NCBI RefSeq assembly: GCF_964340395.1
Contig: NC_135554.1
Location: 4,346,975-4,410,974 of the forward strand
DNA length: 64,000 nt
Direction of reading: 5' to 3'
DNA from: Glandiceps talaboti
Lineage: Eukaryota; Hemichordata; Enteropneusta; Spengelidae
Below, in pieces: positions 60,629 through 63,637 of the stretch. Below the pieces are notes generated by a model. The model worked only from the letters and a program-made list of their open reading frames with translations, was not told where the DNA came from and ran no database searches. The position numbers and the translations under genes were made by a program. Position 1 is the stretch's first letter; every line of letters begins with the position of its first letter.

Positions 60629-60686
60629 ATGAACTTTATGCCCAAGCTTATTGTTTTACTCATCGCTTGCGTGGCAGTTGGTGTTG
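60629..60686 (+). CDS. Peptide precursor exon 1 (signal peptide)
   Basis: ATG at 60629. Encodes MNFMPKLIVLLIACVAVGV plus one base, donor GTTG|GTAAGT. A short charged N-region and a 13-residue hydrophobic core are typical of a secretory signal. A second in-frame Met lies three codons later. Confidence 0.75.
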
Positions 60687-63637
60687 GTAAGTAACATTAT
60701 TAACATATCTTCATCAACAAGAAATCTGATATACTGATAAACTTTTTGGTATGTTCATTGTTTACACTACAAATTAAATGCGTGTACAATTACTCTCTCT
60801 CTCTCTCTCTCTCTCTCTCTCTCTCTCTCTCTCTCTCTCTCTCTCTCTCTCTCTCTCTCTCTCTCTCTCTCTCTCTCTCTCTCTCTCTCTCTCTCAGTAC
60901 CGTCTGATGGTACTTTTCTTGGTAGTGCCTCTATTCCTGACAATAATGTCGACAACATAGAATGTACACCAATTGATGACAATGCTGTAGAGGATGGGTA
61001 AGTCAATAACTGAATCAGATGTTGTTGTGTTTGATGAAAACAATAGATTTCAACAAATGAATAAAATGATTTTGAACCAAGTAACCATAATATACCAAGC
61101 AGGGTTGGTAAACTGTCTTCCAAAATGTAAATGAGCCAATGTAAATATACATTTCATATAATTATATTCTCATCTGATTGATAATGATTTTCTTGCTTTT
61201 CTCTCTTCCTTGTGTCTTTTTTTCGCAGTTTGACAGTGTTCAATCTCATTTTGTTTTCATTTCCCTTTTCCGTTTTTGTTCCCACGAGAATTCCATTCAC
61301 AGGCGTGATAAAAAAAAGTCACAAGATTGTGTTCATTTGCGTCTACATTTTATTTTTTCAAGAATTGTTTTATAATTCCTTGGCGCAGTGTTTGACTGTA
61401 AGGCCAAAAAAAATATATCTGGTTCTGGTCAGCGCGCGCGTGCCTGAATACCCTCGCGTCGGTCCTTTTTTTCAGATAATTTTTGCTTTCCCGTTCCTTA
61501 TTTATTCCTGATATCAGGAGAACAAGCAGCTGGAATCTACCATACATACAAAGCCTAAACTGCTTCGAAGAAAAAGGAAGTTTTTCAAGAGATAAATATG
61601 ATAGAACAGAGTATGTAAAGTGTCCAAAAAATGTGTATTTACTAATTTGCAAAAAAAAAAAAAAAAAAAAAAGGGGGGGGGGGGGAGATTCACGTCGTCG
61701 CACCACATTAGAAAGTTTACCCTGACCAGAACCAGATATTTTTTTGTTGCCTAAGTGGTGTATTTTACTGTGTATGTAAGTCCAGTGATCGAGTATATAC
61801 TTCGGAATATGATGCAAACGAAAGCTGGTCGGACATTTAATTATGGCTGTTTCTCTACATACTAAAATGTATACTTAAGGCCCAGTTACACGATGCAACT
61901 CATGAAGCAATTCGTCGCATGCGACGAGGCTTGCAACTGCGACGGAGCGCGTACACGATGCAACTAGTTGCATGGTGAGTCGCAAGAGCTAAACTGTTGC
62001 ACATGCGTAGATATATAAAAGTTACAGGTCATGAAGGTCAAGTCTTCTAGCGGCAGGAATTTGGCAAAAATGCTATGAAATTGTTAATATTTACGAATAA
62101 AATGACTGAAAACTTGTTGAGGTATCGATAGTAAAACTCTATTCAATTCGAAGTTCGTTTAGGGCGATGTTGATCTTTCCGATGTCGCTACTTGCATTCA
62201 AGTTGGAAATAAAATGATATTCAGCGGAAATCAAGCATTCATAGACATTGTATACTATTTATAAGTGGTAATCGTGGTGATAAATCGAAATGATATAAAA
62301 AATACTTGCTGAAATAGAATATTTATACTAAAAACATGGCGGCCATAACATTGAACGTCATTTGACACGTACTAAGGTATATGTCAAAGGTTATTACTTG
62401 CGACGCGACGAAGTGGTTACACGGTGCAACTCACAAAGCAACTCGAGAAGCAACTTGCGACGCGTCGCAAGGAAACCGACCTTGCGACGTCGCAAGACCC
62501 TGCGATGAGGCGAGTACACGATGCAATTCGTCGCATGCGATGAATTGCATGGTGCGTTGCTAGTTGAGTTGCATCATTTATCCTCACACAATGTAACTCT
62601 ATGGAGTTATCACCATAACCTACAAGATTCGTAAACAAAAAGGTCCAATCTAGATTTGTTCTAGGTGAAATCTTAGCACAATTAATTATGCAACAGCTTT
62701 TGGTGTGAACTAACTTTTTTACGTCAACTTAAGGTTTCGGAAAATCTATAAAATTCGCTAACAAAAACAATGTTGGTGTTACCGTAAAGAAGCCTTCAAA
62801 ATGTAATCTTACGACAATGGGATATTTTCAAATTGAGGTAGATATTGCATTGCAAGAAATGTCTTATTTCACGTTCATTAATTTTAGTTTCCTTTCTTCG
62901 CTTCAATTTAAATTTCAGTTCAATTGGTTTTCAAGGTGATGATGAAAAAACAAAAGATAGGACACGAAAGGGACCTATCCGTCGATTCTTTCGGCGTATT
63001 GGGAAAGGTTTGAGAAGGATATTTGGGAGGAAACCAAAACATAAAAAGAAAAGTAATGATATTGATAATTTGGAGGAAGAAACCAACCAAGAAGTGAGTA
63101 TTTATAAATATAGCTTACTATTTGACGTGGTTTGTGCACACATTCACGAAACTCATTAGATTCGTGTTGGTATAAAAACCATTGTTGTTTTATAAAACAT
63201 TCGTAAATATTAATATAATCTAGCAAAGACATTGCGATAACAACAAACATTTAATTTTTAGTTTCCAATCAAAAAGTTGTAGTCAAAATGACGGGGAAAC
63301 TGTCATTAACAGTTACTGACTGTGATATAAAACTTTTGACTTTTACGTTGTCTTATAGAATCTCACCCCTACTGACAAGGACTCTAATGATGACCATATC
63401 CATAAGGACCACTCTGAAGATGACCACGCCACTGGTGACATCACAACCAAAATAGATAATGAAACACCGACTACCACTGACACCTCACCCGTCGATGAAA
63501 CTCGCCTTGTATTCCTTAATTTTGACGAATCAGAGTCTGATTGTGCTGCAAGTGACTCTGAGGACGACGATAAGACCTTCGGTAAAGTTATTGAAACTAT
63601 TGAAAGTGTCACAGATGACATATTTATATTTCAGTAA
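60629..63637 (+). CDS. Secreted precursor with a cationic amphipathic peptide, candidate antimicrobial peptide gene (203 aa)
   Basis: Four exons (58, 100, 175 and 279 nt; phases 1, 2, 0) join to 203 residues. Residues 1-19 are a signal peptide (Lys6, then LIVLLIACVAVGVG). Residues 20-66 are acidic with one Cys (42). Residues 67-97 are intensely basic. Within these, 71-88 carry Ile/Phe/Leu at 73, 76, 77, 80, 84, 87 and 88 and Arg/Lys at 74, 75, 78, 79, 82, 85 and 86, an ideal amphipathic helix. An Arg-Lys pair at 69-70 precedes it, and Gly-Arg-Lys (89-91) follows, the classic amidation and dibasic cleavage signal. Residues 98-203 are acidic (SDSEDDD, DDHIHKDH), with N-glycosylation sequons NLT (112) and NET (145) and one Cys (173). 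The charge-balanced layout is that of helical host-defence peptide precursors. I do not recognise a named family; a neuropeptide or heparin-binding role is possible. Confidence 0.72.
60793..60895. repeat. (CT)51 tract serving as the polypyrimidine tract of peptide-gene exon 2
   Basis: Uninterrupted CT dinucleotides that run straight into the acceptor CAG. Length polymorphism here would alter the 3' splice-site environment of the peptide gene. Confidence 0.97.
60898..60997 (+). CDS. Peptide precursor exon 2
   Basis: The acceptor AG at 60896-60897 directly ends a (CT)51 tract. Encodes VPSDGTFLGSASIPDNNVDN, then IECTPIDDNAVEDG (partial last codon). Donor ATGG|GTAAGT. Acidic pro-segment. Confidence 0.72.
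61400..61757. mobile_element. MITE in intron 2 of the peptide gene
   Basis: The left end (AAGGCCAAAAAAAATATATC and TGGTTCTGGTCAG) and the right end (CTGACCAGAACCAGATATTT and TTTTGTTGCCTAA) are inverted relative to each other over ~30 bp. The ~350-bp interior includes an A22G13 homopurine junction at 61651-61685. A related end is at 24285. Confidence 0.65.
61651..61685 (+). repeat. A22G13 homopurine tract
   Basis: Twenty-two A followed directly by thirteen G inside the MITE. Likely unstable and able to form triplex or quadruplex structures. Confidence 0.93.
61880..62590. mobile_element. Palindrome-rich element in intron 2 of the peptide gene
   Basis: GATGCAACTCA at 61892 is matched by its inverse TGAGTTGCATC near 62565. 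The two ends are built of repeated ACACGATGCAACT, CGTCGCATGCGACGA and TTGCGACGCGTCGCAA palindromes (61890-62000 and 62395-62580), with plain AT-rich sequence between. A non-autonomous DNA transposon is likely; the class is unknown. Confidence 0.6.
62919..63093 (+). CDS. Peptide precursor exon 3 (cationic core)
   Basis: Acceptor AATTTCAG|TTCAATT, donor CAAGAA|GTGAGT. Encodes SIGFQGDDEKTKD, then the basic core with KGPIRRFFRRIGK and GLRRIFGRK, then PKHKKKSNDIDNLEEETNQE. The codon phase joins exon 2 (GG|T) and exon 4. Confidence 0.78.
63359..63637 (+). CDS. Peptide precursor exon 4 (acidic tail and stop)
   Basis: Acceptor TTGTCTTATAG|AATCTC. Encodes NLTPTDKDSNDDHIHKDH through DDIFIFQ and TAA. 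Strongly acidic with His and Thr clusters, consistent with neutralising the cationic segment in the precursor. Confidence 0.75.
   Translation, partial: NLTPTDKDSNDDHIHKDHSEDDHATGDITTKIDNETPTTTDTSPVDETRLVFLNFDESESDCAASDSEDDDKTFGKVIETIESVTDDIFIFQ

Follow-up and report, generated by a model that had tools for sequence, protein, structure and literature searches.

A candidate family of secretory-pathway protein kinases with a conserved cationic amphipathic helix in the genome of the hemichordate Glandiceps talaboti

The rhoptry kinases of Toxoplasma consist of a leader, an Arg-rich amphipathic helix (RAH) and a kinase domain, and the RAH domains bring these proteins to the vacuole membrane. To our knowledge, the combination of a secreted kinase with a docking Arg-rich amphipathic helix is known only from the rhoptry kinases of apicomplexans. 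As a caution, in one report on RAH domains, the Arg-rich region of one rhoptry kinase was insufficient for targeting (PMC4863586). Kinases of the animal secretory pathway include VLK/Fam69, POMK and Fam20/Four-jointed (PMC7948968). Here, we analysed a stretch of 64,000 nucleotides from the hemichordate Glandiceps talaboti (hereafter, the window; contig C7, NC_135554.1, positions 4346975–4410974), in which a feature on the forward strand, at 60629–63637, had been interpreted from the sequence alone as a small antimicrobial or bioactive peptide precursor with an amidation signal. The feature is almost certainly the N-terminal half of an eight-exon protein kinase gene. For the family to which it belongs, we favour, with a probability of roughly 0.6, a lineage-restricted set of kinases of the secretory pathway with an Arg-rich helix that binds membranes or anions.

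In the joined window sequence, the segments 60629–60686, 60898–60997, 62919–63093 and 63359–63637 can be joined in frame across GT-AG introns, yielding an open reading frame (ORF) of 203 amino acids. Exon 1 (60629–60686) includes the start codon and a hydrophobic, signal-peptide-like segment, MNFMPKLIVLLIACVAVGV, and ends at a phase-1 GTAAGT donor; exon 2 (60898–60997) encodes a short acidic linker that differs among paralogs; and exon 3 (62919–63093), which in the paralog models is entered in phase 2 and left in phase 0, houses the cationic amphipathic helix. These exons, most of exon 4 and the in-frame joins proposed by the sequence-only reading hold, but its 3′ end does not. A phase-1 donor, TTCG/GTAAAG (63581/63582), lies inside the fourth exon of that model, phase-1 donors occupy the matching place in the paralogs (GTAAAT, GTAAGG, GTAAAG and GTAATG), and the first kinase exon opens with a phase-1 acceptor, the exon 4/5 joint pairing phase 1 with phase 1. 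Furthermore, the read-through tails beyond this donor are dissimilar across subfamilies. Exon 4 (63359–63581), an acidic linker with EDDDKTF as its last residues, most likely ends at the donor at 63582, and the last 18 codons and the stop (to 63637) of the earlier model would belong to intron 4 (715 bases; 5′ part at 63582–64000). All of these features are on the forward strand, as are the kinase exons outside the window, namely, exon 5 (starting at C7:4411271, window-equivalent 64297–64483), exons 6 and 7 (65074–65212 and 66894–67001) and exon 8 (from 67362). Exon 5 begins at the 297th base past the last base of the window, so the kinase part is invisible within it, and the misleading impression of a peptide gene arose because the window stops in intron 4.

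Searching the genome (590 Mb, 47 contigs) with exon 3 identified 13 loci, window included, all with E-values of 4.2e-5 or better (three each on C2 and C6, two each on C7, C8 and C12, and one on C11); a divergent family member used as the query recovered the identical 13 loci, the weakest at E 0.0025. Eleven of them (window, L009, L010, L011, L012, L013, L015, L016, L017, L018 and L020) have kinase exons on the same strand, downstream of exon 4. Hence, the small precursor with an amidation signal was not borne out, given that a kinase follows in the window copy and at 10 of the 12 loci elsewhere in the genome. Uninterrupted eight-exon models could be built for seven of the 13 loci, namely, L011 (471 amino acids), L012 (469), L015 (559), L016 (550), L018 (438), L013 and L009, the last with 10.7 kb between exons 3 and 4. 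The intact models share one layout: a signal-peptide-like start, an acidic linker, the cationic helix, a second acidic linker of low complexity and the kinase domain. The remaining loci gave no uninterrupted model: L010 has a stop and a frameshift in exon 8, L014 a stop in exon 3 shortly past the core of the helix, L020 frameshifts and stops, and the window copy a stop in exon 8, exon 2 of L017 is unconvincing, and for L019, which has exons 1–4, no kinase exon was found.

The lengths of the kinase exons are equal or nearly so. Across the six models tabulated, including that of the window copy, exon 5 measures 187 nt and exon 7 108 nt in every case, exon 6 is 136 or 139 nt and exon 8, in the five intact ones, 417 or 420 nt, while the linker exons 2 and 4 range from 61 to 205 and from 163 to 460 nt, respectively. 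In L013 and L009, exon 5 is 193 nt and exon 7 108 nt in both, exon 6 is 148 and 139 nt, and exon 8 is 420 and 417 nt, respectively. A hydrophobic exon 1 with a phase-1 GTAAGT donor is present in nine of the 12 loci other than the window, a count that omits L014, with a differing candidate, and L010 and L020, with no candidate. Sequence homology thus establishes a multigene family and its gene structure. A chance ORF is ruled out by the 13 loci with their conserved core, and a chance neighbourhood of two genes by the order, strand, phases and kinase exon lengths, which match on several contigs.

The kinase domain is readily recognizable. The one full-length member scanned, L011, matches the Pfam Pkinase model (PF00069) at 132.8 bits, with a gathering cut-off of 31.7 and an E-value of 1.9e-38, and the best 60 of its 2314 structural matches include CaMK1-gamma, CTR1, MLKL, ASK1 and general kinases. 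The catalytic Lys and Glu, the Asp of HND, the Asn and the Asp of DFS/DFT are present in all six tabulated models, even in the window copy, which stops in the C-lobe; intact catalytic motifs are thereby established at the sequence level. The domain and most catalytic motifs resemble those of canonical Ser/Thr and TKL kinases (CaMK1, CTR1, MLKL, ASK1), but in the family HRD is replaced by HND and DFG by DFS or DFT, and the N-terminal half is unrelated. We take the HND motif to make these kinases non-RD; in plants, non-RD kinases are often tied to innate immunity, which is a weak pointer. PF14531, presumably a model built on rhoptry kinases, scores 25.1 on L011 against a cut-off of 25 and covers the model only in part, compared to 132.8 and 105.7 bits for the general kinase models; we read this borderline score as general kinase similarity and do not claim membership in the ROP2 family.

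Comparison with a set of 5.8 billion proteins produced 269 matches, the best 120 of which show at most 37% identity, in a search that depends on shared 5-residue words and that distant relatives may escape. No hemichordate name appears among the 120 matches listed, most of which are nameless, and the six best matches inspected are ordinary kinases without a comparable N-terminal half. All 16 NCBIfam matches score under their own cut-offs. VLK/Fam69, POMK and Fam20/Four-jointed are not named among the 120 listed proteins (mostly nameless), the 60 listed structures, or any of the three Pfam and 16 NCBIfam matches. These animal kinases resemble the present family in predicted entry into the secretory pathway, but we know of no cationic helix or acidic repeats in them. 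Exon 3 has no Pfam family at E 1 and no chain among the PDB sequences at E 10, in agreement with the earlier statement that no named family could be recognized, and residues 46–105 of L011 gave two candidates in the protein database search, neither at E 10. In listings of the open-access literature, including that on hemichordate antimicrobial peptides, kinomes and acorn-worm genomes, we found no account of this family. As far as these searches reach, they support the view that the family is undescribed.

The best-conserved part of the N-terminal half is the core of the helix. Residues 71–88 of the earlier model, GPIRRFFRRIGKGLRRIF (62971–63024), carry a net charge of +7 and have an Eisenberg hydrophobic moment of 0.62, a value reached by 23 (0.00115) of 20,000 shuffled versions of the segment. 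AlphaFold2, run on exon 3 alone as a single sequence, predicts a helix at residues 19–35, PIRRFFRRIGKGLRRIF, that is, GPIRRFFRRIGKGLRRIF without its first Gly, as well as a second, short helix at residues 9–15; this prediction, with a mean confidence score (pLDDT) of 73.3 and values of 77, 89 and 81 for 10-residue blocks, speaks of helix propensity only. The 21-residue core, KGPIRRFFRRIGKGLRRIFGR (residues 70–90; 62968–63030, forward strand), has a net charge of +4 to +8 and a moment of 0.55–0.64 at all 13 loci. The cationic amphipathic segment of 18 residues was therefore recognized correctly in the sequence-only reading, and its claim that such a segment is unlikely by chance is corroborated by the shuffles and the 12 further loci.

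Across old splits, the core is conserved better than the enzyme. We compared eight sequences, with the subfamilies grouped by us and the four same-subfamily pairs left out, and the resulting 24 between-subfamily pairs average 77.4% identity in the core and 51.0% in the kinase, compared to 22.6% in the part before the core and 20.5% in the part after it. The core exceeds the kinase in all 24 pairs, and only two of 253 overlapping 21-column windows of the kinase attain its mean identity. In all three pairs among the window copy, L011 and L018, non-synonymous divergence (dN) is 0.08–0.16 for the core, 0.33–0.48 for the kinase and 0.60–0.94 for the linkers; across the old subfamilies, synonymous sites are at or close to saturation, so these values are a comparison within genes rather than dN/dS ratios, dS being synonymous divergence. 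The core differs at no position between L015 and L016 and at one between L015 and L018. In the part before the core, dN exceeds dS in 4/4 recent pairs, a hint only, with very few changes involved. Conservation of the helix, established here by sequence comparison, supports its maintenance by selection, and a family-wide function of the helix appears very likely.

A cationic helix behind a leader and an acidic segment recalls the precursors of cathelicidin- and magainin-like peptides, but here it is embedded midway along a kinase precursor and the amidation signal is not conserved. The sequence-only reading had staked its peptide on conserved processing sites, and the 13 paralogous loci bear this out on one side of the core only. 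The residue before the core is Lys at all of them (the Lys-Gly pair itself anchored the count), preceded by Arg in 11, His in L012 and Ser in L020; by contrast, Gly-Arg-Lys after the core is confined to five loci (window, L009, L011, L012 and L014), the others having Gly-Cys (seven) or Trp-Ala-Lys (one). An amidated product is accordingly not general to the family, and the amidated helical antimicrobial-peptide precursor is rejected in view of this unconserved site and the kinase exons at 11 of the 13 loci. The seven Gly-Cys members have another Cys seven residues earlier (in L009, the earlier Cys occurs alone), which points to a possible Cys pair in part of the family. A broader version of the peptide hypothesis would be a pro-protein whose cleavage frees a host-defence peptide consisting of the cationic helix, with the kinase acting separately or as a carrier. 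The conserved Lys and the nearly constant Arg before it, the uniform charge and moment of the core, and its standing as the best-conserved section of the N-terminal half are all compatible with such a pro-protein, but the scarcity of the C-side signal, the catalytic motifs retained by the kinase and the cut itself, which after Lys and before Gly-Pro would be an atypical furin site, make it quite unlikely.

The leader and the rest of the sequence are compatible with secretion. In the modelled members, exon 1 encodes a short hydrophobic segment with small residues at its end, as judged by eye from hydropathy and residue pattern. Beyond residue 25, 19-residue hydropathy reaches at most 1.22 in all six models, leaving no transmembrane-like stretch, and the same six models place an N-glycosylation sequon at the exon 3/4 joint or no more than two residues from it, which is suggestive only; in the window copy, the sequon includes the Asn that is the first residue of exon 4. 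The signal-peptide-like start, on hydropathy only, and the acidic flanks described from the sequence alone are hence upheld. A secreted or lumenal protein fits the leader, hydropathy and sequon, although this is not proof, and we consider entry into the secretory pathway probable. Conversely, the hydrophobic start might be a non-working signal peptide or a membrane anchor, leaving the kinase intracellular and the basic helix to serve as a calmodulin-binding, nuclear-import or inner-leaflet motif. Canonical kinases are mostly cytosolic, and basic amphipathic helices commonly bind calmodulin or phosphoinositide. However, the modelled paralogs keep the hydrophobic N-terminal exon despite its variable sequence, have no other hydrophobic segment and share the sequon, so that an intracellular kinase appears unlikely.

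A secretory-pathway kinase with a membrane- or anion-binding helix would be expected to work as follows. The leader would direct the protein into the secretory pathway, where the acidic linkers might cover the helix until an anionic surface is met; the Arg-rich amphipathic helix of 17–18 residues would then dock the kinase on a membrane or another anionic partner, for example, a microbial or vesicle surface, and the docked kinase, given its intact motifs, might phosphorylate nearby proteins. For docking by the predicted helix, we consider the chances to be even, and a role in defence appears doubtful. The order of leader, Arg-rich amphipathic helix and kinase, and the multigene organization, are shared with the ROP2-family rhoptry kinases of Toxoplasma, but here the genome is that of an animal, the kinase similarity is general and there is a single short helix, so the likeness is an analogy and descent is not shown. 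In its boldest form, which we consider unlikely, the analogy would mean that an animal lineage independently evolved secreted kinases that serve as immune effectors and dock via an Arg-rich amphipathic helix on target membranes, such as those of microbes or of endosomes, with a helix conserved more than the enzyme and with acidic repeat linkers as a charge switch. The family is more unusual than an ordinary kinase, being probably secreted, apparently lineage-restricted and best conserved in its cationic helix across old splits. A signal-like leader and a cationic helix ahead of a kinase domain are an unusual pairing for an animal. If the leader works, the family would add secreted kinases with an ordinary kinase sequence, found in one animal, to the few kinases known from the secretory pathway. 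The cationic module of 21 residues, more conserved than the enzyme over old splits, offers a directly testable membrane-targeting or host-defence element.

Besides the saturation of synonymous sites, several observations weigh against this explanation. The signal peptide was assessed by hydropathy and residue pattern only, and the L013 model requires a weak GTTAGT donor. Between L011 and L012, which diverged recently, 18 of 21 positions are identical in the core (dN 0.068) and 280 of 284 in the kinase (dN 0.006); the core thus changed faster than the kinase in this pair, which makes its conservation a pattern of the older splits. Furthermore, no kinase exon was found in about 10 kb downstream of L014 or in about 24.7 kb downstream of L019, where exons 1–4 are present, and a kinase-less N-terminal gene may accordingly exist. 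Along the same lines, the short product might come from retention of intron 4, or from kinase-less copies such as L019, and be a secreted peptide precursor in its own right, as the ORF indeed stays open up to the stop at 63637. Nevertheless, the tail past the donor is unlike between subfamilies, the position and phase of the donor are common to the paralogs, and L019, which after the core matches L018 at 75 of 76 residues, arose from it by recent tandem copying and is best regarded as a partial duplicate; a separate short precursor is consequently very unlikely.

The premature stop in the window's own copy also counts against a secretory-pathway kinase at this locus. Exons 5–7 are open, but exon 8 contains an in-frame TAG at C7:4414513 (window-equivalent 67539), in the C-lobe past the DVWALG motif; a separate analysis likewise shows one TAG in exon 8. 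The predicted product has 389 residues and a truncated kinase, which, as assembled, would probably be inactive. Whether the locus is a decaying pseudogene, in which case the conservation of the helix speaks for the family rather than for this copy, appears evenly balanced: the TAG and the further broken copies L010, L014 and L020 suggest decay, but exons 1–7 are open with GT-AG splice sites, the core is identical to that of L011 at 19 of 21 residues, and the TAG may be a single-base assembly error or a polymorphism. The window copy may be a null allele or a decaying gene. Such decay is compatible with the proposed secretory-pathway kinase family and does not exclude it.

Repeats are associated with the genes in several ways. 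The acidic linkers are in-frame minisatellites in exon 4 of L015, L016 and L017 and in exon 2 of L015 and L016, with units such as HDVDSDSPK and DVTSQISKPNTS, the copy number of which varies among tandem paralogs. In the window, a (CT)51 microsatellite (60793–60895, forward strand) itself constitutes the pyrimidine tract of the acceptor of exon 2; a 14/14 pyrimidine run is also found at this acceptor in L011, L012, L013 and L009, and shifts in tract length could alter splicing. Intron 2 contains two inverted-repeat pairs, at 61405–61749 and 61895–62560, with arms of 28 nt (93% complementary) and 33 nt (85% complementary), respectively, which look like short non-autonomous DNA transposons.

The genome also contains partial relatives of the family. 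The recent tandem copy of L018, L019 (C6:12008120 region), keeps exons 1–4, with no kinase exon found in the roughly 24.7 kb downstream, and might represent a natural kinase-less version. Partial kinase copies are found at L035 (C15:12589830) and L036 (C4:7386869), with no N-terminal exons in the 6–7 kb covered for each, alongside further matches on C9 (10140462) and C8 (16931352 and 19011897, the latter about 30 kb downstream of L014).

Elsewhere in the window, one long ORF on the forward strand (38381–39940) is the coding sequence of GTF3C5 (TFIIIC subunit 5), with 68% identity to the Saccoglossus kowalevskii homologue; apart from its own record, the others among the best 120 of 552 matches do not exceed 50%. 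On this one gene, the animal would probably be placed among the hemichordates. A sturgeon record flagged UNVERIFIED_CONTAM (P0122) has a higher bit score than that of Saccoglossus, yet it is only 50% identical over 68% and over-long, and it is perhaps chimeric or contaminated. Finally, the window contains long minisatellite arrays at 2880–7292, 13767–22326, 32084–34640 and 53935–56086, with units of 63, 36, 40 and 100 bases, respectively, and up to about 235 copies.

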